In this document: positions 1 to 31,707 of the stretch, piece after piece
Layout of the letters: each line of letters begins with the position of its first letter
Numbering within the stretch: position 1 is the first letter of the stretch
Virus record (IMG/VR): IMGVR_UViG_3300032087_003108
Location: 1-31,707 of that record
DNA length: 31,707 bases
Strand: one strand, 5' to 3'
Source: a virus
Notes under the pieces: generated by a model
What the model was told of the DNA's origin: nothing
The model's database searches: none
The model's input: only the letters and a program-made list of their open reading frames with translations
Made by a program: the position numbers and the translations under genes

Positions 1-100
1 ATGGACGCACATCTGCTTCTGGTTGTTTAGTTAGAATACTGTGCTTACATACTTGATAAGCAATATCTTCTCTTGTGTCATATCCTACAAATACTTTCAT
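1..100 (-). CDS. Glycosyltransferase-like protein, N-terminal fragment (cut by window edge)
   Basis: Only the first 33 codons lie in the window; the gene runs off the left edge. The translation starts MKVFVGYDTREDIAYQVC, followed by a KHSILTKQP stretch. The pattern of a short beta strand, GYD-x-RE and then an Ala/Tyr-containing helix ending in S-I is the usual N-terminus of GT8-like (GT-A fold) glycosyltransferases found in phage and bacterial glycan clusters. The start codon overlaps the stop of the upstream nucleotidyltransferase-cupin gene as TAATG, which implies translational coupling. It would transfer a sugar from a nucleotide-sugar donor, fitting the three sugar-nucleotide genes before it. 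The donor-binding DxD region is outside the window, so the family call rests on about 30 residues. Confidence 0.6.
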   Translation of the reverse strand, partial: MKVFVGYDTREDIAYQVCKHSILTKQPEADVRP

Positions 101-855
101 TAATCTCTTCTTTCAATATCATCTTCTGTAAGTTCTGTGCCCATCCAGACTTCTATAACTTTTGCAGTATTATCACCTATATTAGTTGCTTTATGCCAAG
201 TAAGAACAGGTATATCTATACTATCTCCTGATGAGTATGTTTTAGTTTCACAGTCACCATTATCATATTCTAATGCCATTTGTATTGTGCCTTCTACGAC
301 ATGCCAGTGTTCTGAACGTTTGAAATGGCGTTGGTCACTAAGTGCTTTACCTGCATCAAATGCAAGTTTTTTTGTAGCCCATCCGTCACCTTTATCAAGC
401 ACAGTATATCTGCCCCAAGCACGTTCTGTAGTAGGTTGTGCCCATTCTTTGAGTATCCAACTACTTGAATTCTTTTTATCTTCGCCTCCGACACCAAACG
501 CAAACTCAACATCTTTGTATATCATTTCTGGAATGTTGTCTTTGGTTCTATCACCGCCGTTGGCAAATATTACTTTTGTTTGACTACCTACTGTAGACAA
601 CACAGTAAATATTGCCGCACAGGCAGTATCGTCGTCATCGTTGAATCCTATTACTTCGTTTACACAATCTAATTCTTTAATGATTGCACAACGTTCTTCA
701 AAAGGCATAAACGCTTTGCCTTTTTTACGTTCAAGCCAAGCATCACTGTTCACACCTACTACTAGATGATCTCCTAATTCTTTTGCTGCTTTGAAATATT
801 CTATATGACCTGAATGCAGCGGATCAAATCCGCCAGTTACAATAACTACTTTCAT
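100..855 (-). CDS. Nucleotidyltransferase fused to a mannose-6-phosphate-isomerase-type cupin
   Basis: Two domains are visible in 251 residues. Residues 1-135 are a cytidylyltransferase-like (HIGH superfamily) domain: GGFDPLHSGH gives the HxGH nucleotide-binding motif (H14, H17), with GVNSD at 34-38, an ER pair at 54-55 and NGGDR at 99-103, as in RfaE2/TagD-type enzymes that load a sugar or alcohol phosphate onto CTP or ATP. Residues 143-245 match the C-terminal cupin of type II phosphomannose isomerases: RAWGRY, then Q175-x-H177-x-K179-R-x-E182-H-W, IP-x4-H221, and IEVWMG near the end. The second metal-ligand His of the cupin motif is Lys179. The fusion suggests a bifunctional sugar-phosphate isomerase/activation enzyme; the substrate is unknown. 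It follows the dehydrogenase by 29 nt, has a late box 4 nt before its ATG and no Shine-Dalgarno sequence. Confidence 0.85.
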   Translation of the reverse strand: MKVVIVTGGFDPLHSGHIEYFKAAKELGDHLVVGVNSDAWLERKKGKAFMPFEERCAIIKELDCVNEVIGFNDDDDTACAAIFTVLSTVGSQTKVIFANGGDRTKDNIPEMIYKDVEFAFGVGGEDKKNSSSWILKEWAQPTTERAWGRYTVLDKGDGWATKKLAFDAGKALSDQRHFKRSEHWHVVEGTIQMALEYDNGDCETKTYSSGDSIDIPVLTWHKATNIGDNTAKVIEVWMGTELTEDDIERRD

Positions 856-859
856 GCAG

Positions 860-867
860 TATTTATG
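860..867 (-). promoter_or_regulatory. Late promoter box CATAAATA, 4 nt from a start codon
   Basis: On the minus strand CATAAATA is followed by CTGC and then the ATG of the nucleotidyltransferase-cupin gene. The box resembles the T4 late promoter TATAAATA. Taking the T4 spacing, transcription would start at or within one base of the ATG, giving a leaderless mRNA. A GTACGTAC palindrome (867-874) lies directly upstream. Inferred from sequence match and position only. Confidence 0.5.
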
Positions 868-884
868 TACGTACTTTATTCAGT

Positions 885-1622
885 TTAATTTTTTGGTAAT
901 TTAGAATTGTCTTCGTGTACCGATTTGATTAAATTATAATCCATGTTTAATTTATCAATTAAATTTATAAGTGCAACTGTATCTTTTGGCAAACAAGCAC
1001 CACTGTATCCACGCAAGTTTTCATTTACGTTGAGATATTGTCCACTGGTCTTTTCTGTTTTAATATATGCATTTTTTATTATATCATAGTTTGCATTGTA
1101 TTTTGCAGACAAATCATACATTAAATTAGCAAATACAATACGCAAACTTGCATATGTGTTGTTGTAGAATTTTAAAATTTCTGCTTCTACTGGTAACATA
1201 TACTCTACAGATTTAGGCAAGAACTTAAAAGCGTCAACTACAGTTCTAGCAATTGCTAAATTATATGTTCCTATTGCTAACAATTTACAATCTTCAAAAT
1301 CTGTATCAGCATAATCTTGTCTTAAAAATTCAGGTACAAAGCAAATATCTAAATTATGTTTTTTCAATAATTTGTCTGTAGTTCCAGGAAGTATTGTACT
1401 ACGTATTGCAACAACACCTTTATACTGAAACAAACTAATTTCTTGTAAAACTTTTTCTACATTATTTTCATGTGTACAAACAAATACTATTTCTGTATCC
1501 AGTACATCTTGTATTTTTGTATTGAATTTTATATCGTGTTCTACTACAGTATGTCCTAGTTTTTCAAAACCTTTGACGTTTGCCTTACCTACATTACCAA
1601 CACCAATTACGCCAATTTTCAT
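885..1622 (-). CDS. Short UDP-glucose/GDP-mannose dehydrogenase-like protein lacking the C-terminal domain
   Basis: The N-terminus has a Rossmann dinucleotide motif, GVIGVGNVG (residues 4-12). Residues 75-82 (STILPGTT) and PEFLR (97-101) match the UDP-glucose/GDP-mannose dehydrogenase family. The central helical domain has K151 and N155 in LKFYNN, and the catalytic cysteine is C210 in GACLPKD, with D214. The protein ends 35 residues after the cysteine, at 245 aa, whereas family members are about 390-450 aa; the C-terminal UDP-sugar-binding domain is absent. All visible catalytic residues are kept, so it is not an obviously decayed gene. It might oxidise a nucleotide sugar with a partner protein supplying substrate binding, or act on another substrate. 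The ATG overlaps the stop of the epimerase gene (ATGA, 1619-1622), so the two are translationally coupled. Confidence 0.85.
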   Translation of the reverse strand: MKIGVIGVGNVGKANVKGFEKLGHTVVEHDIKFNTKIQDVLDTEIVFVCTHENNVEKVLQEISLFQYKGVVAIRSTILPGTTDKLLKKHNLDICFVPEFLRQDYADTDFEDCKLLAIGTYNLAIARTVVDAFKFLPKSVEYMLPVEAEILKFYNNTYASLRIVFANLMYDLSAKYNANYDIIKNAYIKTEKTSGQYLNVNENLRGYSGACLPKDTVALINLIDKLNMDYNLIKSVHEDNSKLPKN

Positions 1623-2491
1623 AGTAGACTTTCCACAGTTTTTTTAAGTCCAACTTCTAAAGGCGTGTAGTCTGTAAATCCTGTTAGCATTTGTACTAGT
1701 GTTGTATCTGGGCATCTACGTGTTACACTGCCTTTGGGTCCTGGTAGTACTTCTAACTTATCTGGATTTATGCCCATGTATCCCATTATAAGTTTTGCTA
1801 CAGTACTAATAGTTACTTCATTATCATTGCCAACATTTACTGTTTTATTGATACAATTGTTTACAAGATTGTCTGTCATTTTTACAGCATCGTCAATATA
1901 ACAAAAACTACGTGTGTCGTTGCCTTTGATATAATACAATCCTTGTTTACAACGTTCTACAAACTCATTTATAAAATGGTCAACTTGTCCTGGACCGTAT
2001 ACATTAAAATATCTTATGATCAAATATTCTAAGCCACTGTTTGCTACTAGGTTTTCACCGAGAGCTTTCGGAATGCTATAACTCCATCTTGGATTTGTAA
2101 TGTCGTTAAACACAACCGGTACTTGCTCATCAGTTGGCACATGGTAATAACCTGCATCAATTGCTCCATTAAATATTTCACACGTACTAGCAAAAACAAA
2201 TTTAGTGTCGGTATTTCTATAACGTTCAATTAAATTTATTGTTGGTATTGTATTGTTTATCAATACATCTGTAGGTTGCTCATAAAAAAGGTTAGTACCA
2301 TTTGTTGCCGCAAGGTGTACTACAACATCATAATCAGGCAATAATTGTGTAGTGGCTTTATTTGTTAAATCTTCTCCACGGATTTTTTTATCATACGGCA
2401 CTACGTGTGCTTTTTGCTGTTGCAAATGCTTGTAATAATGACTGCCGATAAATCCGTGTGATCCGGTTAGTAATATTTTAGAGTGTTGCAT
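1619..2491 (-). CDS. NAD-dependent epimerase/dehydratase (extended SDR)
   Basis: A 290-aa extended short-chain dehydrogenase/reductase. The N-terminal TGSHGFIGSH (residues 9-18) is the TGxxGxxG NAD-binding motif. HLAA at 59-62, a Ser in FASTCE (S102), the catalytic Y138-x3-K142 pair in YSIPK and RYFNVYGPGQ (160-169) are the usual order of motifs in nucleotide-sugar epimerases and dehydratases such as UDP-glucose 4-epimerase or UDP-glucuronate decarboxylase. The exact substrate cannot be read from the sequence. It likely interconverts a nucleotide sugar in the cytoplasm, before or after the neighbouring dehydrogenase. It starts inside the last codons of the UvsX-linked helical protein gene (14-nt overlap), so the sugar genes are an extension of the recombination operon. 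Confidence 0.9.
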   Translation of the reverse strand: MQHSKILLTGSHGFIGSHYYKHLQQQKAHVVPYDKKIRGEDLTNKATTQLLPDYDVVVHLAATNGTNLFYEQPTDVLINNTIPTINLIERYRNTDTKFVFASTCEIFNGAIDAGYYHVPTDEQVPVVFNDITNPRWSYSIPKALGENLVANSGLEYLIIRYFNVYGPGQVDHFINEFVERCKQGLYYIKGNDTRSFCYIDDAVKMTDNLVNNCINKTVNVGNDNEVTISTVAKLIMGYMGINPDKLEVLPGPKGSVTRRCPDTTLVQMLTGFTDYTPLEVGLKKTVESLL

Positions 2492-9239: not shown

Positions 9240-10868
9240 TTATTTTTTGCGTTGTGCCAATGCTGCAAGCAGTTGTGATTTAATTGTTTCTTCTAATTCT
9301 GCTTCTTCTGTGTTCATTGGGTTATCACCGCCTGCTGTTGCTGGATACGATCCTTTTTCTTTGTGTAGATCGTTACCTGCTGGAATACTTGCACTCATAT
9401 CGTTTGCATAAGTGGTCATTTCTTCATCTGGTTCAGTTGTAGCATCTTCAAATCCGCCATCTTCATTTTCTTCTGCAACAGATTCTTCTGGTGCCATTAA
9501 ACGAATCATGTCGCCCATGCCTGGCTCTTTTGGTTTACTACCGCAGCCTCCCATTGGTTGACTTGGGCCGTGTACTTTGCCGCAAATTGGGCAAGGCTTA
9601 GGACCAGGATTGATATCATCTGGTTCTACCATTTTTGCGCCATCAGCGCCTGCTAATTGCATCATGCGGAGTATTTCTGCTACTTCGCTTGCATCAGCAC
9701 CATTGATATTGATGCTTGCTTCGTCTAGTTTCTTTTTCATTTTTACTCCTGCTAGATCTAATATTCTTGACTCTTCCATATCGTCAATTGTTTTGTATCT
9801 GATTTGACCTAATAATGCACCTGTATCAGCTTGTGCTGCACCTCTGCCTCTAGTTCTCGGCATGTTAGGAATTGAACTAATATCAATTACACCTCTTGTA
9901 GGATCATCCTCTACTCTACCACCACTTACTGTGATGCCAAATACTTCTTCGTAAAACGATCTCCAAGATCTTCTTTGCCAGAAATCGTCGGCTTGATTTT
10001 TTGCATCTACTAGCATTCTTAGAAGATCGCCATTAAATCTTTCAATTTGATCATCAAACTTTGTTTGTGCTTCAGGCGACAATCTAGTTCTAATAGTATC
10101 TGCTTCTACACGCCCGCTTGGAGCAGGTTCTGCAGGTGTCTCTGGCTCTTCTTCTGGTTCTGCAGGTGTCTCTGGCTCAGGTGTTTCTGGCTCAGGTGGG
10201 GTTGGATCGGTAGGTTCTGGAGGTGTCTCTGGCTCAGGTGTTTCTGGCTCAGGTGGGGTTGGATCGGTAGGTTCTGGAGGTGTTTGCTCTGGTGCACTAT
10301 CATCCTCAGGTGCTTTAAGTTTTTCAATAGCACTACGTGTTTCTGGACCTACTATACCATCAACTGCAATACCTTGTGATTGTTGTAATGTTCTTACAGC
10401 TTGTTCAGTTTTAGGTCCAAAGATACCATCCTGTTCACTTTCTGGCATACCTAATCTACGTTGTAGTTCTTTAACACCTTCGCCTCTACTACCTCTACGT
10501 AGTAAACCTTGATCATAACTTGCGCCAGTTACCGGACGTGGATTTTGTGAAGGTGCAGCAGGTGCGGCAGCGGCGGTTGCGCCTCCTGGTCTTGCAGTTG
10601 GATCATTGCCAAAATTTTCGCCTGGTCCATAAGGAACACGTTGTCCATTTTCAATTCTACCTTTGATAGTAGCAGGATTCCATCTACCTAAAAATCCTTC
10701 TCCGGTTGGATTACCGTTCCATCTTACAATACCATCTGCACTTCTAAAATATAAATTTCCGTCAGTATGTACCATAACAGGATTCATGCCGCCGATGCCG
10801 CCATAATGGGTAGGTACAAAATTTGTCGGTGCTGCTTCTTTGATTACTTTTACTTCAGAAATTTTCAT
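9240..10868 (-). CDS. Virion-like protein with peptidoglycan-binding domain and Pro-Glu repeats
   Basis: A 542-aa multidomain protein. Residues 120-186 are a peptidoglycan-binding (PG_binding_1) domain: LRRGSRGEGVKELQRRLG, DGIFGPKTEQAV, LQQSQGIAVDGIVGPETR. Residues 187-250 are a Pro/Glu/Thr linker with a perfect 19-residue repeat. A helical part follows (255-310), then RILDLAGVK at 368-376, and a CPIC-x3-H-x8-C cluster (C426, C429, H433, C442) that could bind zinc. The C-terminus (470-542) is acidic and disordered-looking. No lytic catalytic domain is seen, so it is not an endolysin by itself; a capsid- or tail-bound wall-binding protein is a reasonable guess. An AGGAG sequence supports the start, 1 nt after the preceding stop. 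It lies between gp16 and gp17 and ends at a strong terminator. Confidence 0.85.
   Translation of the reverse strand: MKISEVKVIKEAAPTNFVPTHYGGIGGMNPVMVHTDGNLYFRSADGIVRWNGNPTGEGFLGRWNPATIKGRIENGQRVPYGPGENFGNDPTARPGGATAAAAPAAPSQNPRPVTGASYDQGLLRRGSRGEGVKELQRRLGMPESEQDGIFGPKTEQAVRTLQQSQGIAVDGIVGPETRSAIEKLKAPEDDSAPEQTPPEPTDPTPPEPETPEPETPPEPTDPTPPEPETPEPETPAEPEEEPETPAEPAPSGRVEADTIRTRLSPEAQTKFDDQIERFNGDLLRMLVDAKNQADDFWQRRSWRSFYEEVFGITVSGGRVEDDPTRGVIDISSIPNMPRTRGRGAAQADTGALLGQIRYKTIDDMEESRILDLAGVKMKKKLDEASININGADASEVAEILRMMQLAGADGAKMVEPDDINPGPKPCPICGKVHGPSQPMGGCGSKPKEPGMGDMIRLMAPEESVAEENEDGGFEDATTEPDEEMTTYANDMSASIPAGNDLHKEKGSYPATAGGDNPMNTEEAELEETIKSQLLAALAQRKK
10165..10278 (-). repeat. Two perfect 57-bp tandem copies coding a Pro-Glu linker
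   Basis: Positions 10165-10221 and 10222-10278 are identical over 57 bp (19 codons), with further partial copies before 10165. They encode the PEPTDPTPPEPETPEPETP-type linker of the peptidoglycan-binding protein. Exact DNA identity in a protein linker points to a recent duplication by slippage or recombination. Confidence 0.95.
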
Positions 10869-11957: not shown

Positions 11958-12497
11958 TTATTTACCCCAGTTTTTATTGGTGTTCATATAAGCGGTTATA
12001 GTTGCACGCCAATTGTTACCACTTTCGTAACTATGCCAGGTTTCGTTGTTATTTCCAGCAAAAATTAAACATCTTCCAGGCTTCCAAGGTATTTCAAGTT
12101 TATCTTTATTATTCATATCTGACATTACATATGTTCCGATGCTTTTTAAAGGACCTATATATGTAACAAAAGTCCATATTTTTGTTTCATCATCGCAGTG
12201 AGGTTGAAATTTATATCCTGCAGGATTTATTGCTAAATGACCTAATGCATGTAATTTTTTATATTGTCTGGGAGATTTATAATTTAATTCTTTTATTACA
12301 TCAGGCATTTTGTCAATTGCTGTTTGTAAAATATTTTTATATGGTTCTTCGATTGTATCAGTAGTATAATGAAACTTAGAATTTTTTTCTTGTATATGTT
12401 TTTGTGCAATATAAGAAAGTTTTGCTACATCTTGCTTTTCAATAAAATTATCAACAACCCAGTGTTTCCACGGAAATGTTTGTTCAAAAATTTTCAT
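11958..12497 (-). CDS. 2-oxoglutarate/Fe(II)-dependent oxygenase
   Basis: A 179-aa double-stranded beta-helix oxygenase. The iron ligands are H100-x-D102 in PHCDDETK and H155 in TWHSYES, and R164 in RATITAY is placed to bind 2-oxoglutarate. The order and spacing fit prolyl-4-hydroxylase-like phage enzymes, which are frequent in marine T4-like phages. It would hydroxylate a protein, sugar or nucleic-acid substrate in the cytoplasm; the substrate is not evident. Its ATG overlaps the gp4 stop codon (ATGA), so it is co-translated with a head protein. Base composition is lower in GC than the flanking head genes. Confidence 0.88.
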   Translation of the reverse strand: MKIFEQTFPWKHWVVDNFIEKQDVAKLSYIAQKHIQEKNSKFHYTTDTIEEPYKNILQTAIDKMPDVIKELNYKSPRQYKKLHALGHLAINPAGYKFQPHCDDETKIWTFVTYIGPLKSIGTYVMSDMNNKDKLEIPWKPGRCLIFAGNNNETWHSYESGNNWRATITAYMNTNKNWGK

Positions 12498-22032: not shown

Positions 22033-23720
22033 TGCAGTTTTTTTATGACGGACAAATACGTAGATATCTAACGCAAATTATTAGAGTGTTCAGCAACTTT
22101 AGTTACCAAGACGGCGATGGCGATCTTAAACGTGTGCCTTGTATGTACGGTGATATTACAAGACAAGTTGGCAGCATTATAAGAGAAAACTCAGAAAACA
22201 AATTGCCAAGTGCTCCTCGTATTGGTGTTTACATTACAAGTTTACAAATGGATAGAGCAAGACTTAGTGATAGTAGTTTTGTCAGCAAAGTAAATTTACG
22301 TGAAAAAGAGTTTGATTCAAACACTAATAGTTATCTTGCTCAACAAGCAAAAGGATACACAGTAGAAAGATTACATCCTACACCTTACACGTTGGCTATA
22401 AATATCGATGTTTGGAGTACTAGTACTGATCAAAAATTACAAATATTAGAACAAATCTTTATGCTGTTCAATCCAGATTTAGAATTCCAAACAACTGACA
22501 ATTATGTTGACTGGACAAGTTTAACCACACTGTATTTAGAAGATATAAATTTTAGTAGTAGAAGTATACCGGTAGGAACACAAGATGATATTGATGTTGC
22601 AACTATAGGGTTTACTGCACCTATATACATTTCACCTCCTACCAAAGTTAAAAAACTTGGTATTATTACAGATATTATTACAAGTATTTTCAATCAAGAA
22701 AACGGTACAATTAGTTTAGAAGGATTTAATCCTCCAACGGATACTGATCAAGGTGCAGCAAGTGGAACTACAGTATTACCAGATGGAACTATTGTTTCGC
22801 AAGGCACAGCAGGCATTGGTTTAAATGGTAGACTAGACAACGAAAATCCATTAGTAACAAGTTATAGAAATTTTGATATTATTGTACAAGAAGAAACTGC
22901 ACAACTTGCATTGAATAGAAAATTGCGTGTAGGAGAAATAAGTTGGCTGAATATTTTAGAAGCAGAACTTCCTGCAAGATATCAGCCTGGTATAAGTCAA
23001 ATAAGAATTCGCAGAGCAGAATTAAATTCAGAAATTGTAGGAACATTTACTATTAGAAACGGCGATGCATTTATTATGGATATAGATTGGGATGCAGATA
23101 CATTGCCAAGTAACACGCTGATTGAAGGTCCGACAAAAACTGATGGGTCAGTTGATTATATTGTAAATCCTATTGAGTTCAATCCTAGCTCTGTCAAAAC
23201 AGTAGGTACTCGTATATTATTACTAGGTCCTTTAGGTTATAGAGTAGACAGAAACTTTATAGCAACTTATAGTGATAACAAAATTCACACAGATATAGAC
23301 TTCTTTATTTTAACAAGTTCATTAGGTGCTCGCATAGGTGAGCAAACAGTTACTGGCTTTAATGTTTATGTAAATGGAATTGAAGTTTCTGCTACAGGGT
23401 CAAATGTAAATGATAAATTTTTAATTACATTAGATGTGCCATACAATGCTGACGATAGTGTGCAGTATGTTTTAAATCTCAACGAAGACGGTGCAGCGGC
23501 ATGGAAGAATGCTGACAATAGTGATTTTGTTGCCGATGCAAACGACATTGTAGAATGGGACGGATCCAAGTGGCATATAATTTGGGACGGTAGTACTAAA
23601 AACGATACTACGTATGTTACAAACATTACAACAGGACAGCAATACTATTGGAACGATTATTATTGGCAAACTGCTATAGATGGTTATTATCCAAGAGGTA
23701 CCTGGACTATTACTTTATAA
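22032..23720 (+). CDS. gp15: gp15 tail completion and sheath-stabiliser protein
   Basis: A 562-aa protein. The N-terminal 230 residues match T4 gp15 (272 aa): FFYDGQIRRYLTQIIRVFSNFSYQ, RVPCMYGDITRQVGSII, LHPTPYTLAINIDVWSTSTDQ and ILEQIFMLFNPD. It caps the tail tube and last sheath ring and joins the tail to the neck. The remaining 330 residues are extra: a region with beta-rich segments (about 280-490) and two aromatic W-type motifs at the end (VEWDGSKWHII near 507 and QYYWNDYYWQTA near 536). The gene is coupled to gp14 by a TAATG overlap and followed 13 nt later by the Nudix gene. Confidence 0.94.
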   Translation: MQFFYDGQIRRYLTQIIRVFSNFSYQDGDGDLKRVPCMYGDITRQVGSIIRENSENKLPSAPRIGVYITSLQMDRARLSDSSFVSKVNLREKEFDSNTNSYLAQQAKGYTVERLHPTPYTLAINIDVWSTSTDQKLQILEQIFMLFNPDLEFQTTDNYVDWTSLTTLYLEDINFSSRSIPVGTQDDIDVATIGFTAPIYISPPTKVKKLGIITDIITSIFNQENGTISLEGFNPPTDTDQGAASGTTVLPDGTIVSQGTAGIGLNGRLDNENPLVTSYRNFDIIVQEETAQLALNRKLRVGEISWLNILEAELPARYQPGISQIRIRRAELNSEIVGTFTIRNGDAFIMDIDWDADTLPSNTLIEGPTKTDGSVDYIVNPIEFNPSSVKTVGTRILLLGPLGYRVDRNFIATYSDNKIHTDIDFFILTSSLGARIGEQTVTGFNVYVNGIEVSATGSNVNDKFLITLDVPYNADDSVQYVLNLNEDGAAAWKNADNSDFVADANDIVEWDGSKWHIIWDGSTKNDTTYVTNITTGQQYYWNDYYWQTAIDGYYPRGTWTITL

Positions 23721-23733
23721 GATAATTATTTTT

Positions 23734-24168
23734 ATGAACAAGATTATATGCAGTGGAGCATTGTTCTATTCACTTGAAACAAAAAGATTTTTATTTCTGC
23801 ATAGAACACAAAGTAAAGCAAAAAACTTATGGGGATTAGTTGGAGGTACTAATGAGGGAAAAGAAACTCCATGGGAAGGCCTACAAAGAGAAATAGAAGA
23901 AGAAATTGGGTTCTTACCTGAAATTAAAAAAACAATACCATTAGAAACATTTGTAAGTAATGATGAACATTTCCATTTCCATACGTACCTTTGTGTAATA
24001 GACAAAGAATTTATGCCTAAATTAAATAGCGAACACAACGGATATTCTTGGGTAAGTTTTGGTGCTTGGCCAAAACCGTTGCATCATGGATTACAAAATA
24101 CTCTAAGAAGTAAAATAAATCAAAATAAATTAAAAACCATTTTACAAGTTATTGATATGATCGCTTAA
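23734..24168 (+). CDS. Nudix hydrolase
   Basis: A 144-aa Nudix protein. The full Nudix box G-x5-E-x7-REUxEExGU is at residues 38-60 (GGTNEGKE, then REIEEEIGF). The usual family size is 130-180 aa, so this is complete. It would hydrolyse a nucleoside diphosphate linked to some other moiety (NTP, NADH, nucleotide sugar, or an RNA cap as in NudE-type phage enzymes); the substrate is not evident. I chose ATG 23734 because an earlier in-frame start overlaps the gp15 coding end. It shares the gp14-gp15 plus-strand unit. Its last 20 nt overlap the 3' end of the convergent 868-aa gene, with no terminator between them. Confidence 0.92.
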   Translation: MNKIICSGALFYSLETKRFLFLHRTQSKAKNLWGLVGGTNEGKETPWEGLQREIEEEIGFLPEIKKTIPLETFVSNDEHFHFHTYLCVIDKEFMPKLNSEHNGYSWVSFGAWPKPLHHGLQNTLRSKINQNKLKTILQVIDMIA

Positions 24169-26755
24169 ATTCTTCTTTCAACCATTCAAAGTCGTTGATT
24201 TTTGCAAGTTCTTCGATGTTATCTTTGTTTAATTCTCCAAACGCTTTGCCAGATATAGCACCAGCAATGGCTGCTTTACCAAAGGGTTTATCAGTACCTC
24301 TTGTGCACCAAGCATTTAATCTAAATTCGGTTTCCTCATCTTTTTGTCTAGCAATTGTTCTACTTGCAAGTTTTGCACATTCTCTAAATCCACTACGCCA
24401 TGCACTAAATGAGTCTGTGTTAAATGCACTTGTATTACTCATTTCTTCAATGCCTTTGAATTTATCACTAATACTTGTTGTCATATCAGTTGTAGATTCG
24501 TCCATGTTTCGTGTTAAATTTGTAGGTAGTAATTTCACTCCTCCGTATCCGTAAACCAAACCATTTACTGGATTTAAACTTCTCCAAACGTGTACTGTAT
24601 CTTTACCGTCTATATCATAAGCAGGTACATAGTAATCAAATTCAAAACCATCAATTATTTCTGCATCGCCGTCTACTACCCAAAACATGTCAGTTTCAAC
24701 TAATTCAGCAGCACGTTTATGAGCTTTATGAATTCCTTTAATATCCATTACACGTTTAGTTCTTGGAAATTTTTCTGATAAGGTATCAAAATTATCATCT
24801 GCATTTGGTTCGCCATTGCTAATAAAAACAATATCGTAGGGCTTTGGATTACTACCTACTTCGTTGTATTCTTTTTTAGTTACAAAAAATCTATAGTCAA
24901 TTTCACGTTGACTGATGTTTAGTTTTGTACTTGTTAGTGCTATACCATCATAAAAGTCACCGTTTTTCCAAACATGATTTATTTTACGTTCGTATTGGTT
25001 ATGATGTGTAATGTTAAAGTTCCAATCAAAATCTGGCACTGGCAAGAAACTGTCATTTACCATCCAAAACATATCATAGTTACAATCTTTTTTTGCATTT
25101 AAATAATCTGTATAATCATTTACTGTATAGATAGGATATGGCTTCGGAGTGCTTGCTACAATTTCGTGCTCTTTCTTTTTTATTAAAAATCTATGTTCTA
25201 TTTCTTTTTCGCTTACTAAAACGTTTTTACTGAATAACACAATTCCATCGTAGTTTTCACCATTTAGAAATACATGATTTATATTTCTATCGTATGTATT
25301 ATGATGATCAAAATACAAACTAAAATCAAAATCTTCTGCAACTTCTACGTCACTCGGAACACCCCAAAACATTTCTGTATGACAATTGTATAGTGCTTCA
25401 GTGTAATCTTCATAATTATTGATTGTAAAACGTTGATAAGGTTTTGGTGTGCTTGCTACAATTTCATGTTCTTTTTTGTTTACATAAAATCTATGCTCAA
25501 ATTCTTTTTCTGTAATTTCAGCCTTAGCACATACAAGTACAATGCCATCGTACGATTTATCATTTAAGAAAACATGATTAGTTTTCATATCAAAAGTTTC
25601 TTGATTATGAAAGTATTTGTCCCAAGCAAAATCTTCTACAATATCTACATCACTTGGTATCATCCAAAACATATCGGTGCCACAACTTGCTACGGCACTT
25701 TTATATTGCTCATAATGATCAATCTCAAATCTTTCAAAATCTTTTGGTACACTTGCAACTGTGTTATGCTCAATTTTTTCTTTTATATCTCTAAAAAGAA
25801 TCTCTTCTTCGGTGATAGTTTTTGTTTTACTAAACAAAAATACACCATTATAATTGTTTCCATTTAACCAAGCATGATTAGATTTTTTATCACTGCTATG
25901 ATGGCTGATATAATAATCAAATTTAAAATCTTCATTGATTATAATCTGATTGTTATATCCCCAAAACATGTCAGTTGTGCTTTTTTCCATTGCTTCTAAA
26001 TAATCTGTGTAATTATTGATTTGGAAAATATCATATGGCTTTGGATTACTTGCCATAATGCGCACTTCTTTTTTGTTTACAAAAAATCTATGTTTTAATT
26101 CTTTTTCCGTTGCTGTATAATTTTTAGGTAGTAAAACTATACCGTCTAATTGATCAATATCTCCGTTGCCGAATACATGCGGAATATCGTAACTCCATTC
26201 ATCTGGAACATAACTGAACTTAAATGTATCTCTAATCATAGTATCATCGTATACTACCCAAAACATATCAGTGAAACTGCGTTCCTTTGCTTGTTCAATA
26301 GTATCAATTACCTGTACATCAAAATTTCTTTCAATCAACCTGTCTAATACAGTTTTATCTTTTCCAATATAAAATATTTCAAATCTGCCTGTACCCTTTG
26401 TAGGATCATAATGTCCACAAATGTGTGCATGTTTTTTTACTTCATAATCGCCAGGTGCTGTCGGAACTAGTCTAACCATTTTCCAACTTTTTACTTCACG
26501 GCTTTTTTCAAACACATAAGGAAATGCATGTATAGCAGCATCATCGTCAGGCGCAGGTTTATAGAACCAAGGAAAGCTATCATATACTTTTAAATCAGGA
26601 TCAACTAGCCAAACATAGTCAGCACTTCCTTGCCAATTTTTTATTTCAGTTTCGTCGTGTACAACAGGGTATTGTTCAAAAATATGATTTTTTAAATAGT
26701 CTTGTCCGTTGTGTACTGGATTACCAAATCTTTCAAATCTGTCTATAGCTCTCAT
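24149..26755 (-). CDS. 868-aa tandem-repeat protein built of GT-A-like modules
   Basis: Seven related modules are centred on a hydrophobic strand of the type DMFW-x2-x-D: residues 45-55 (DYVWLVDPDL), 162-170, 261-268, 360-368, 460-468, 560-568 and 688-698 (DMFWVVDGDAEI). Copies two to six repeat with a period of 99-100 residues, each with HVFLNG or similar, YDGIVLFSK, and KKEHEIVAS-x-PKPY. The last copy (about 640-745) is the most complete and looks like a GT-A (GT2-type) domain with ISNGEP, AHKRAAELV and an intact DGD; the first keeps DPD, and the middle ones have lost the DxD. Residues 750-868 form a distinct helical tail (AWRSGFRECAKLAS, DFEWLKEEF). It may be a glycosyltransferase with a glycan- or donor-like repeat array. 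It is coupled to a GT-A gene upstream by an ATGA overlap. Confidence 0.8.
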   Translation of the reverse strand: MRAIDRFERFGNPVHNGQDYLKNHIFEQYPVVHDETEIKNWQGSADYVWLVDPDLKVYDSFPWFYKPAPDDDAAIHAFPYVFEKSREVKSWKMVRLVPTAPGDYEVKKHAHICGHYDPTKGTGRFEIFYIGKDKTVLDRLIERNFDVQVIDTIEQAKERSFTDMFWVVYDDTMIRDTFKFSYVPDEWSYDIPHVFGNGDIDQLDGIVLLPKNYTATEKELKHRFFVNKKEVRIMASNPKPYDIFQINNYTDYLEAMEKSTTDMFWGYNNQIIINEDFKFDYYISHHSSDKKSNHAWLNGNNYNGVFLFSKTKTITEEEILFRDIKEKIEHNTVASVPKDFERFEIDHYEQYKSAVASCGTDMFWMIPSDVDIVEDFAWDKYFHNQETFDMKTNHVFLNDKSYDGIVLVCAKAEITEKEFEHRFYVNKKEHEIVASTPKPYQRFTINNYEDYTEALYNCHTEMFWGVPSDVEVAEDFDFSLYFDHHNTYDRNINHVFLNGENYDGIVLFSKNVLVSEKEIEHRFLIKKKEHEIVASTPKPYPIYTVNDYTDYLNAKKDCNYDMFWMVNDSFLPVPDFDWNFNITHHNQYERKINHVWKNGDFYDGIALTSTKLNISQREIDYRFFVTKKEYNEVGSNPKPYDIVFISNGEPNADDNFDTLSEKFPRTKRVMDIKGIHKAHKRAAELVETDMFWVVDGDAEIIDGFEFDYYVPAYDIDGKDTVHVWRSLNPVNGLVYGYGGVKLLPTNLTRNMDESTTDMTTSISDKFKGIEEMSNTSAFNTDSFSAWRSGFRECAKLASRTIARQKDEETEFRLNAWCTRGTDKPFGKAAIAGAISGKAFGELNKDNIEELAKINDFEWLKEEFKRSYQ
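24836..26272 (-). repeat. Five-unit protein repeat, about 100 residues per unit
   Basis: This stretch codes residues 162-640 of the 868-aa protein and covers the five regular units. They are clearly homologous in protein (TDMFW, NHVFLNG, YDGI, VASTPKPY) but diverged in DNA except for short blocks such as the VASTPKPY codons of units three and four, so the array is old rather than freshly duplicated. Confidence 0.85.
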
Positions 26756-27336
26756 AATTGGTTAGCCTTTATTCCTATGTGTGCAAGTTTTATATTAGCA
26801 TCTACGTAAGTATCATAGCCATGATGCATTGCTTGATTACAAAAGTATATATCTTCGCCGCTGTGTGTATCTAAAATTTTATTATATTCATGTGCAAACC
26901 AAGGCTTAGGCAAGTCTTCAAAAACTTGCTTTGTTATTAGCATACAACCCATACCTACTGCCCATACTTTGTGTAAACCAGTTGTTGCTGTAAGTCTTTG
27001 ATCCATGTTGTTAGGATCTGTAAATGCTACACTTTGATACGGTGCATATCTTGTACTATAATTTGCTGCTACAATATCTTTTTTGTGTGACATTAGATCT
27101 AATACTATATTGGCAGGAAAGTACATATCGCTATCTAACCAGAGCAAGTGTGTAGCACCACTAGCCAATGCTTCATTTGCTAACTGTGTTCTAGACTCAC
27201 AAACTACACTACTGCTAACAATGTGCAAGTTATAATCTATTGATAATTTTGTCAAACGACCAGTAAGATTTGCTAAACTTTTTGCAAATATTGTGTGTAC
27301 CTTGTCGCCTGCTGGAACGCAAATACTTAGTTGCAT
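26752..27336 (-). CDS. GT-A fold glycosyltransferase
   Basis: A 194-aa compact glycosyltransferase. It starts QLSICVPAGD, has RTQLANEALASGATHLLWLDSDMYFP (49-74) with the metal/donor-binding D68-x-D70, a GMGCMLITKQVFEDLP strand-helix, SGED at 159-162 and a C-terminal LAHIG with H186. This is the layout of GT2/GT-A phage enzymes that add a sugar from a nucleotide sugar. Acceptor and donor are unknown; it may act on DNA bases, a virion protein or a host glycan. The stop overlaps the 868-aa gene start (ATGA) and the start overlaps the preceding stop (TAATG), so three genes are coupled. Confidence 0.87.
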   Translation of the reverse strand: MQLSICVPAGDKVHTIFAKSLANLTGRLTKLSIDYNLHIVSSSVVCESRTQLANEALASGATHLLWLDSDMYFPANIVLDLMSHKKDIVAANYSTRYAPYQSVAFTDPNNMDQRLTATTGLHKVWAVGMGCMLITKQVFEDLPKPWFAHEYNKILDTHSGEDIYFCNQAMHHGYDTYVDANIKLAHIGIKANQL

Positions 27337-27713
27337 TAGAGCATTGTGTTTGGCATAGTTTCCTGGTTTAGATCTTTTTCAGCACTAATAGTAAGTTGAT
27401 TCCAATCACGTGCAGATCCAGTTGCTACTTTTACACATTCTTGAAAATCGTCTGGTGATAAACTTGCCATTTTGATCATGTTCTCTGGTTGTACTTTTCC
27501 AAGTGTAAGCAAGTCTGCGCCTGCTGCTTTACCAAATGTCATAATCCAATGCAATCTGTCATCATCTTCTGGAATATCCATAGCCGCAATTGCATCAGCA
27601 ACTTGTTTTTCAAGTTCTTCAGTTAGTCCAAGTCCTTGTGCTTTTGTAGTTTTTCTTTGCTTTGTATATTCCTGTGCCAAATCTACATTTAGTACTTCGT
27701 ATAGTGTTTTCAT
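27336..27713 (-). CDS. Small phage protein of unknown function
   Basis: A 125-aa acidic, mostly helical protein (MKTLYEVLNVDLAQEYTKQ, LTEELEKQVADAIAAMD, ASLSPDDFQECVKVATG). I do not recognise a family; no signal, membrane or catalytic motif is visible. I chose ATG 27713 because AAGGAA (27720-27725) sits 6 nt upstream; a longer reading from 27755 would overlap the 60-aa gene. It lies after a small beta-rich virion-like protein and before two glycosyltransferases, in a tail-fibre neighbourhood, which suggests but does not prove a tail or fibre-assembly role. Confidence 0.75.
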   Translation of the reverse strand: MKTLYEVLNVDLAQEYTKQRKTTKAQGLGLTEELEKQVADAIAAMDIPEDDDRLHWIMTFGKAAGADLLTLGKVQPENMIKMASLSPDDFQECVKVATGSARDWNQLTISAEKDLNQETMPNTML

Positions 27714-27723
27714 TATTTGTTCC

Positions 27724-27906
27724 TTAGGGTAAGATTGGAAAATAGTATCCGCCAAAACTACTACTCATACTAATAGTAGTCCCTGCACTAATACCGATGT
27801 ATGTACCTAACACACTAATGGTGTAGCTACTGGCAAATCCACCATTCACAAAATAATTGCGAATGTCACTCATTGATATTGTGTTGCCTGTTGCTGGTAA
27901 TGCCAT
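27724..27906 (-). CDS. 60-aa small virion-like protein
   Basis: A 60-aa protein: it starts MALPATGNTISMSDIRNYF, continues through SSYTISVLGTYIG, and ends near SAGTTISMSSSFGGYYF. The pattern of a MALP-x-G-x-ISMSDI start and a short (A)GTTISMSS-F-G end is one I recognise from the small modules at the ends of phage fibre and structural proteins. It may be a free copy of such a module that attaches to a virion component. TAGGA precedes the ATG and a sigma70-like promoter lies just upstream. Confidence 0.7.
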   Translation of the reverse strand: MALPATGNTISMSDIRNYFVNGGFASSYTISVLGTYIGISAGTTISMSSSFGGYYFPILP

Positions 27907-27984: not shown

Positions 27985-30900
27985 TTATTTATCTAGTAGT
28001 TTTTGTACCATCGCTTTCAGTTCATCAATTTCTTTTTGCTGCTCTTTGATTGCTTCAATCAATACAGGCGCAATACGTTCGTATTTGACTGTTAGATAAT
28101 CGTTACCGCTTTTGCTTTCACCTGTATCAGTATCAATATCAAACGGTGCAGGAGCAACTGCTTCTGGCAATACTTCTTGAACTTCTTGAGCAAGTAAACC
28201 AACTTCACGTTTTTCAGTATCAACATCTAGTCCCCACTTATGACCTTCGTTTGTCCAATTATAAAGCACACCATTTAATGCTTTGACTTTGTCAAGTGCA
28301 TTTGGAATGTTTTCAATGTTGGTTTTAAGTCTAGCATCTGAAGAGTACGCTGTAACTTCGCCTGGGAATAGTGTATTACCACTACCATCTAGTATAGTTG
28401 CAGTTCTAGTTAGTGAACTAAACACACCTGTATACTGTCTATGATAATGTGGTTCTGTTCCATCATCACCTGTAGCAATTTCTAAGTAACCTGCGTTTGA
28501 TCCAGTAGCAGCACCACCAAATCTCCACTGGTCGTTGTCTCCCATTGTACCTTGTGTACCACGGAACGCTGTACCGCTGTTTGTAAATACCTGTGTTGCA
28601 GTTGAGTTATGCGCACCATTTGTTCTCAAGAATCCAGTGCTGTCAATACCATCTAGGGTATTAGCATCATCAGCACTAATGCCAGTTAAACCACTACCAT
28701 CACCGCTAAATGTATTAGCAGTAACATTACCAGTAATACTAATACTACCAGTTCCGCCTAGTGTGCCAGTAAAGTCATCATTGGCATCGGCACGAATGAA
28801 ACTTGCACTGCTCAATCCGTCTAACTGGTCTGCATTTAGTCCACTGCCTGCACCGTCGTTACCTGCATGCCATACAGTATAAGAAGCAGTGCCATCATTG
28901 AACACAAGTCCATTTGTGCCGCCGTCAACTTCTAGTCTAGTGTTTCCACCTTCGTTTACAATTTGTATCTTATCGCCGCTGTCAGCATATTGAATATAAC
29001 CTCTACGATCTGTTGCTTGATAGAAACTAATGTATGGCGAGCCGCTTGCACTTGTATCTGCCAAACGAATCATTTCGTCGCCTGCGTGACTCATTGTCAA
29101 CAAGCCTGCCATTGTATCTGCTTCGTCACTGCGTACAAAATTTGCACCATCGATACCATCTAAGGTTTCGGCATCTACATTAGTAAGTCCGCTACCGTTA
29201 CCAGTAAATGTGCTTGTACCAATATTGATGTTGCCAAAGCCAGTGCTTATACTACCTGCGTTTAATGCACCTGTACCTGTCAAGTTGCTGTAGGTTCCAT
29301 CAATCCTTGCGTTTGGTACTGTGCCTGATCCTAAGTTTGTAGCATTTAGAGCTTGTATACCACTACCGTTTGCAGTGTTTAGACTACCTGCATACAAGTC
29401 ACCTGCAACACCCATACCGCCGCCAACACGTACAGCACCAGTAGTTGTATTAGTTGCTGCACTTGTATCAGTAAATGTTTTAACACCATCCATGGATTGG
29501 TTGCCGCCTAGTCTTGCACCTGCAACAGTACCACTATCAAGTTCGTCTGCATTTAGTGTTGTTAGTCCGCTACCATTACCTGTAAATGTGCTAGATCCAA
29601 TATCAATGTTACCAAACCCACTTGTAATACTACCTGCACCAAGATTTCCTACACTGGTTAAACTTGATGCTACCACAGTACCGCCTAATGTAGTCGAACT
29701 TAGTACATCTACATTATTGATACGATATACTTTAGTATTTGCAATGTTTATACTTTCACTAAATTGCCATGCTGCATTTGTTACATTGTACAGCATGGTT
29801 TTGTTTGTATCACCTAACAATGTTATACCACCGCCGTTTGCTGTAATATCTGTTGGCGTGGCAACATTGCCTAATTCAATGTTTTTATCTTCAACAATTA
29901 GTGTTGTAGTATCTAGTGTTGTAGTTGTACCGTTGATTGTTAAATCGCCTTCTACAACTAGGTTACCTGCAAAGTTAGCATTACCTGTTGTATAAGCAAC
30001 AGTAAATTTATCTAATGCATCACCAAATGCTAGGTCACCTGTTGCACCAATTTGCATACGCTGTGTGTTTGCAGTGAAGAAATCTAATTCGTCATTATCA
30101 TCACCGGATGCAGTTTCTGCTCTAATAAATGTGTCTTGATCAATATCTTTAACACCGCCTAGTGTTGCCCATGCTGTGCCATCATAACCTTCAAATGCCA
30201 CGTCAGTTGAGTTGAAACGTACTTGGCCTGTTTGCACTGTTACACGTTGTCCAACTTCTCCAGGACGTTGTGCAGTAGTACCAACTGGTACTTTAATTGC
30301 AGTTGTATCAGTAAAGTCGGTGTAACCATTTAGGTCAGTGTCACCGTATGTATCAATTCTCATACGTTCTGTTACTGTTTGTAACAAATCACTAGTAGTG
30401 GATGTTTCGCCTGTGTTTACAATGAAATCACCGCCTGTCGCATTACCAGTACCAATGCCTGCCTGTATTGTAATGTCGCCACCTGCTACATCAGTTCCTA
30501 GGCCGTCGGCACCTTTGATAATACCATTGCTAGGAGTACCACTTGTTTCTGCATTACCAATAATAATGCTAGAATTTTTCAGTATCAAAGAATTGTTGAT
30601 TGTATGGCTACCTGCTGGTACATCAGTTGCTAGTGCAGTAACAAGATTGTCAGTTTGAATTGTAAATGATGTAGCATTGTCTGTTGCACCACTTACTGGC
30701 CATGTACCGTCTAAGTTTGTAACACCACTGCTTGCAATGTTTACAGTGTCCCCTGGACTAATACCTAATGTGTATGGAGTGTATGTAAATGCTAAAGTTG
30801 TACCGCTTAGAATACTACCTGTACTCTCTGCGCTTAAATATATAGCATCATCAGTAACACCACTCACTGTTGTGTTTGCAGGAATACTAGTACTTCCTGT

Positions 30901-31707
30901 AATAATCATTCCAGCTAAAATACCTGTAGTATCACTCATGATAACTTCATTGACACCATTTTGTGTAACTTCAGAAGTTGTCGCTGTAATACTAGATAAG
31001 TTTATTACAACACTTCTTGCAACAGTTGCTTCGTAACTGTCAATGAAAGGGAATATGTCTCTAGGGCCGTCTCCATTACCCATTACAATATTAGTTGCAG
31101 CACCGCCGATTTGCAGGCTAGTTACGTTTTCGTTGTAAATTCTACCTGCGCCTGTACTCTTAGAAGTAAGTGCAGCAGATCCAATATCTAGTCCTTCAGC
31201 AAGGTCAAGTGCTGTACCCCATTCAGGTGTTTCGCCATTTGATTTCAAGAAGTTGTTACGTCTACCAATGTTTAGTTGGTTTAAACTTGCAGCAGATTGT
31301 GCGTAAATGATATCGCCAATACTATATGTTGCAAGTGCTGTACCACCTTTGGTTACAGGAACAACACTGGTAAGGTTAGCTGGGTTTAGGAAGTATGCAC
31401 TATCTAGTCCGTCTAGCGTACCTGCATCAACAACACCATCTTTAATGAATACTTGTCCACTACCGCCTGTATCAATATCAAATTGAGTTTGTAAGAATCT
31501 TGCAACACCTAAACCTGAGAATGTACCAAGTGGATCGTAATCAACGTTACTAATACCAATGTTTACTGGATCTCCATAAAATTCTCCACTTACACTGCTA
31601 CCTGTTAAACTTATTGGGTTATCTACAGTTGATGCTTTTTTCAAACTTTGCACAACGGTTTTATAACTACTATCACCAAACAGTGCTGTGTCACTGTTTG
31701 GCACACC
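27985..31707 (-). CDS. Long tail fibre protein with S74 intramolecular chaperone (5' end outside window)
   Basis: About 1240 codons are in the window and the frame is open to the right edge; an internal GTG at 31704 is not taken as the start. The body is beta-rich and repetitive: units with STFTGNGSGLT-type strands, then LDGIDS-x-x-F-x-R-x-D motifs (five copies), giving a fibrous trimer. The last 121 residues are a Peptidase_S74 domain: SSDARLK (about residue 1121) with the Ser/Lys pair for self-cleavage, GLLAQEVQEVLPEAV, YLTVKYERIAPVLIEAI and a C-terminal coiled coil. After folding the fibre the domain is cut off. It probably binds the host surface. A hairpin follows the stop codon. Confidence 0.92.
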   Translation of the reverse strand, partial: GVPNSDTALFGDSSYKTVVQSLKKASTVDNPISLTGSSVSGEFYGDPVNIGISNVDYDPLGTFSGLGVARFLQTQFDIDTGGSGQVFIKDGVVDAGTLDGLDSAYFLNPANLTSVVPVTKGGTALATYSIGDIIYAQSAASLNQLNIGRRNNFLKSNGETPEWGTALDLAEGLDIGSAALTSKSTGAGRIYNENVTSLQIGGAATNIVMGNGDGPRDIFPFIDSYEATVARSVVINLSSITATTSEVTQNGVNEVIMSDTTGILAGMIITGSTSIPANTTVSGVTDDAIYLSAESTGSILSGTTLAFTYTPYTLGISPGDTVNIASSGVTNLDGTWPVSGATDNATSFTIQTDNLVTALATDVPAGSHTINNSLILKNSSIIIGNAETSGTPSNGIIKGADGLGTDVAGGDITIQAGIGTGNATGGDFIVNTGETSTTSDLLQTVTERMRIDTYGDTDLNGYTDFTDTTAIKVPVGTTAQRPGEVGQRVTVQTGQVRFNSTDVAFEGYDGTAWATLGGVKDIDQDTFIRAETASGDDNDELDFFTANTQRMQIGATGDLAFGDALDKFTVAYTTGNANFAGNLVVEGDLTINGTTTTLDTTTLIVEDKNIELGNVATPTDITANGGGITLLGDTNKTMLYNVTNAAWQFSESINIANTKVYRINNVDVLSSTTLGGTVVASSLTSVGNLGAGSITSGFGNIDIGSSTFTGNGSGLTTLNADELDSGTVAGARLGGNQSMDGVKTFTDTSAATNTTTGAVRVGGGMGVAGDLYAGSLNTANGSGIQALNATNLGSGTVPNARIDGTYSNLTGTGALNAGSISTGFGNINIGTSTFTGNGSGLTNVDAETLDGIDGANFVRSDEADTMAGLLTMSHAGDEMIRLADTSASGSPYISFYQATDRRGYIQYADSGDKIQIVNEGGNTRLEVDGGTNGLVFNDGTASYTVWHAGNDGAGSGLNADQLDGLSSASFIRADANDDFTGTLGGTGSISITGNVTANTFSGDGSGLTGISADDANTLDGIDSTGFLRTNGAHNSTATQVFTNSGTAFRGTQGTMGDNDQWRFGGAATGSNAGYLEIATGDDGTEPHYHRQYTGVFSSLTRTATILDGSGNTLFPGEVTAYSSDARLKTNIENIPNALDKVKALNGVLYNWTNEGHKWGLDVDTEKREVGLLAQEVQEVLPEAVAPAPFDIDTDTGESKSGNDYLTVKYERIAPVLIEAIKEQQKEIDELKAMVQKLLDK

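Follow-up and report, generated by a model that had tools for sequence, protein, structure and literature searches.

Escherichia coli K4 chondroitin polymerase (K4CP; 2z86/2z87) has more than one GT-A domain per chain, and both of its GT-A domains are active. Human LH3/PLOD3 pairs an active GT-A domain with a single GT-A-like accessory domain that has lost its function (PMC6082870). In phages, DNA modification is frequent among glycosyltransferases (GTs), and in T4-like pelagimyophages LPS-type GT genes lie together with the tail fibres in a single cluster for host recognition (PMC7029224). Here we describe an 868-aa phage protein in which a presumably active GT-A-like domain follows a tandem array of degenerate copies. 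LH3 is its nearest structural precedent, the two sharing an active domain (in the phage protein a presumed one) and a defunct GT-A-like one; LH3, however, combines one inactive full-size domain with a 2OG dioxygenase, whereas the phage proteins carry up to 16 half-size units, and a Pfam search of the 868-aa protein found no 2OG dioxygenase domain.

The array gene lies within a 31,707-nt viral sequence, which as a whole we call the window. Its product has seven modules, namely a weak N-terminal copy, five units of ~100 aa (u1–u5) and a C-terminal GT-A-like domain:

24149–26755, minus strand: gene of the 868-aa array glycosyltransferase, frame open throughout
26390–26686, minus strand: divergent N-terminal module, aa ~24–122, with VWLVDPD
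26072–26389, minus strand: unit 1, aa 123–228, of a longer type with an extra b1-a1 in front; YDD replaces DxD
25775–26071, minus strand: unit 2, aa 229–327, without DxD
25475–25774, minus strand: unit 3, aa 328–427, PSD at the DxD position
25175–25474, minus strand: unit 4, aa 428–527, PSD at the DxD position
24839–25174, minus strand: unit 5, aa 528–639, NDS at the DxD position
24152–24838, minus strand: C-terminal GT-A-like domain, aa 640–868, presumed catalytic, with bacterial homologues
24665–24673, minus strand: conserved, metal-binding D695-x-D697 motif of the C-terminal domain

MFW cores occur at aa 164, 263, 362, 462, 562 and 690 (spacing 99, 99, 100, 100 and 128), and a seventh, diverged core, VWLVDPD, lies at aa 48 in the N-terminal module; the seven modules claimed in an earlier note on this DNA, with copies two to six repeating every 99–100 residues, are thus all present. 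Every module has a net negative charge, and no transmembrane segments were found in the protein.

Their sequences indicate that the units and the C-terminal domain are homologous, with one fold of origin. In Smith–Waterman comparisons against 300 shuffles, pairs among u1–u5 reached z = 13–45, units paired with the C-terminal domain z = 6.5–13.5, and the N-terminal module paired with the C-terminal domain z = 8.1; the N-terminal module did not score above chance with u2 or u4. Chance or low complexity as the source of the likeness is ruled out by these shuffles. Profiles built from 44 diverse middle units and 41 C-terminal domains matched each other in hhalign with a probability of 97.1 (E 4.8e-11, 65 columns), and this, with the z-scores, bears out the earlier proposal that the units derive from a GT domain.

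AlphaFold models of the whole protein have a mean pLDDT of 85, with the units at about 90 or more. A two-unit model (pLDDT 92.2, pTM 0.81) is of high confidence over the junction, so neighbouring units are predicted to hold a defined relative orientation. Unit 1 and the C-terminal domain are modelled as strand-helix-strand-helix-strand(MFW); in units 2–5 this leading strand-helix pair is missing, and their long end strand continues into the next unit. In Foldseek searches of the PDB, the best match of the whole model was K4CP (E 6e-5), followed by ArnC, RmlT, IspD and HddC, all GT-A/nucleotidyltransferase folds matched to the full-length query and not assigned to a region of it. Among solved structures the two-unit model found nothing significant (no match below E 0.088), and all 50 of the best weak matches listed, none significant alone, were GT-A or nucleotidyltransferase folds, so that no fold unrelated to GT-A emerged. 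Judged from these models, the unit is most likely a half-domain derived from GT-A, without a close representative among solved structures. Two proteins of uncultured Caudovirales phages in BFVD, A0A6J5LK21 (804 aa, E 4e-35) and A0A6J5L5L5 (1076 aa, E 5e-33), both named ‘Uncharacterized protein’, have the array architecture by fold over their length.

The DxD motif separates the last module from the others. Per-module counts over an alignment (A4) of 25 relatives show D695 and D697 in 25/25, the C-terminal module being the only one with D-x-D in every sequence, and both residues also occur in all 41 rows of an alignment of the C-terminal domain (A5). Alongside them the domain conserves NPxN-L-YGYGxxK and WRxxFRE motifs, and all three are largely kept as far as the bacterial standalone homologues. 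In u1–u5 none of the 25 relatives has the first Asp, the position being mostly Y, P or N, and a make-up with two DxD motifs, as in K4CP, is therefore not found. The middle copies have indeed lost the DxD, as had been claimed, although its second Asp is invariant in u1, u3 and u4 (25/25). The companion claim, that only the first and last modules keep a DxD, stands for the last and fails for the first, where Asp 52 is found in 21/25 relatives and Asp 54, the second Asp of DPD, in just 7/25; this first-module motif is thus particular to the 868-aa sequence and its close kin.

More than 550 relatives of the protein were found in IMG/VR, in marine and freshwater phages related to giant T4-like phages. 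No member of the family occurs among 50,697 isolate-phage records, in which the sole matches, to Enterobacter T4-like phages and one Escherichia phage (tblastn E 3–8), were taken as chance. Nor did the array family match Pfam, PHROGs or PDB sequences: the best scores among relatives fell short of the gathering cut-offs of Pfam GT family 2 (PF00535, 15.2 vs 23.3 bits; PF10111, 18.2 vs 27.3), and the C-terminal domain stayed below every Pfam cut-off, the closest case being a paralogue with Glyco_tranf_2_2 (E 0.0019). Profile searches of Pfam and PHROGs therefore turned up no known family of multi-domain proteins to which a different role is assigned, and the literature searched, mostly without subscription papers, describes no array of this build. 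Unlike the phage arrays, homologues in bacterial contigs (Bdellovibrionia, Oligoflexia, Streptomyces) consist of the C-terminal domain alone, with related motifs and no units. In one Oligoflexia MAG (L199:6804-8711) a radical SAM/SPASM-type domain is fused to the C-terminal GT domain, and further radical-SAM-like genes adjoin.

The surroundings of the array gene are as follows:

27985–31704, minus strand: 3' part of the gene for a giant tail fibre that ends in an S74 chaperone domain
27336–27755, minus strand: 139-aa protein, a conserved member of the order between fibre and small GT, with a weak match to PHROG 1409
26752–27336, minus strand: small GT of 194 aa, Anp1 Pfam match, PHROG 1574
23680–24168, plus strand: Nudix hydrolase gene, convergent, a conserved neighbour
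100–2491, minus strand: sugar-nucleotide genes (cytidylyltransferase-cupin fusion, UDP-glucose dehydrogenase-like, NAD epimerase)

The stop of the upstream small GT overlaps the ATG of the array gene (ATGA), in agreement with the suggestion that overlap couples the array to an ordinary GT, and the Nudix gene overlaps the 3' end of the array gene by 20 nt. The small GT was rejected as the origin of the units (hhalign against the C-terminal domain, 0.2%; no relation). Relatives with 3 to 11 units, wherever their contigs reach far enough, preserve the arrangement fibre – 139 aa – small GT – array – Nudix (reverse) – gp15 (reverse). In the window the fibre ORF, cut by the end of the sequence, runs to 1,239 aa; complete homologous fibres have 3,161–3,943 aa, and few of them come from relatives with a unit number other than five. 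Most of the fibre genes of this length (L208, L211–L217) are preceded by another long ORF (~1,590–2,580 aa seen, some edge-cut). The sugar-nucleotide genes could possibly supply the donor to the array GT, a link we infer; within them, positions 100–855 encode a cytidylyltransferase-like domain fused to a mannose-6-phosphate-isomerase-type cupin. A T4-type terminase, sheath and tail sheath stabiliser mark the window as belonging to a T4-like lineage whose nearest neighbours are the jumbo phages PA5oct/Paride, Atu_ph07 and Phosso; a pelagimyophage origin was rejected, the terminase and one structural protein being closest to those same phages. At the corresponding place in Phosso no fibre, GT or array is annotated.

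While the architecture of the array protein is well supported, its function can be proposed only in conditional terms. The C-terminal ~229 aa would be an active, metal-dependent GT-A-type glycosyltransferase that transfers a sugar, and duplication of this domain's N-terminal half would have produced, ahead of it, a rigid series of half-domains without catalytic activity, which may hold or position an acceptor, or an extended substrate, at the single active site; the array would thus have a binding or scaffold role. In this phage the enzyme is probably translated together with a second GT, downstream of the gene for a giant tail fibre, which makes a fibre glycan, or failing that a cell-surface polymer, its likeliest product. 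We give this reading as a whole roughly even chances. Its presumed target is the tail fibre or a surface glycan, the fibre being the nearest candidate in the lineage of the window.

The main rival for the target is a lipid-linked or cell-surface glycan (O-chain/exopolysaccharide), in which case the enzyme would alter the host surface rather than the virion and the array would grip the growing polysaccharide. This is somewhat less probable, and the cluster that tail fibres share with LPS-type GT genes in pelagimyophages (PMC7029224) is a precedent for it. It draws further on a second lineage of relatives (L097–L118), which lacks the window's gene order and in which no fibre gene was seen beside the array; there the array GT lies among UDP-glucose dehydrogenase, epimerase and radical-SAM genes. 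On one viral contig of this lineage, the 138,699-base IMGVR_UViG_3300042559_001081 (L219, L220; bases 50000–89000), the island around a 6-unit array GT contains a UDP-glucose dehydrogenase, an epimerase and at least nine radical-SAM genes, of which several have SPASM and one is B12-binding. Two array proteins, moreover, end in a domain of the lipid-binding SCP2 type (PF02036; E 2e-7 and 3e-8). In the window, however, the array gene is tied to a fibre operon and not to a polysaccharide cluster, and the array protein has no membrane segment, both of which speak against this rival.

Complete relatives have 0, 1, 2, 3, 5, 6, 7, 8, 9, 10, 11 or 16 units, with five the commonest and 16 in a protein of 2,013 aa (L222); arrays of varying unit number, which the earlier note had suggested looking for, are therefore common in the family, and the existence of relatives with 0 units indicates that the enzyme can do without the array. 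So free a variation in copy number is also what would be expected if the array served as a stiff spacer in the structure, or as a scaffold for assembly, and bound no ligand, the chemistry being left to the C-terminal GT alone. Consistent with this, the conserved residues of the units are mostly a hydrophobic frame, and few polar residues (H, E, R, S) are invariant over 44 diverse units, so that a common ligand pocket is not evident. We nevertheless consider a mere spacer unlikely. In a unit tree, which is based on few columns and leaves many forks unresolved, the units of 5-unit proteins cluster largely by position, which suggests that the 5-unit array is old and that units keep positional identity over long divergence; the 6- to 11-unit proteins contain additional copies, specific to their lineages, of a different unit type. 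Among five relatives, with dS partly saturated, dN/dS is mostly 0.03–0.2 for the units, 0.03–0.08 for the C-terminal domain and up to 0.5 for the N-terminal module, which evolves fastest. These ratios point to strong purifying selection on the units, and units 4 and 5 are constrained as tightly as the catalytic domain, beyond what a spacer would need.

That the enzyme glycosylates DNA or nucleotides and so protects the genome of the phage, a reading brought to mind by the frequent modification of DNA by phage GTs (PMC7029224) and by a 2OG-Fe(II) oxygenase at 11958–12497 of the window, is very improbable given that no base-hydroxymethylating gene was seen in the 31,707-nt fragment, that the array gene is placed behind the fibre and that all array modules are net negative, unlike DNA-binding repeats.

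In this large family a common enzyme fold has been turned into tandem copies, variable in number, within a single protein chain. The family allows a direct test of how inactive copies of an enzyme acquire a binding role, and it points to glycan building tied to giant tail fibres and radical-SAM islands in uncultured phages. More speculatively, and with rather less than even odds, the half GT-A without a metal site may represent a new class of repeat protein, a stackable ~100-aa module tuned between phages from 0 to 16 copies as a length-adjustable ruler for binding glycan or fibre ahead of one active site.

Several variants of gene structure were seen in passing. In L164:3553-6237 the array and the C-terminal GT occupy two overlapping frames, as separate genes or joined via a frameshift. 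Seven members of the second lineage (L097, L099, L102, L103, L109, L113, L117) have an additional single-domain GT from this family, diverged to ~33% identity, which is just upstream of, or fused to, the array/GT gene. Extra C-terminal stretches at L185:6500-7186 and L089:4940-5629 match SCP2, possibly in two copies. Elsewhere in the window, positions 9240–10868 encode a peptidoglycan-binding domain and, after it, a stretch of Pro/Glu-rich repeats (PETPEPETPPEPTDPTP).
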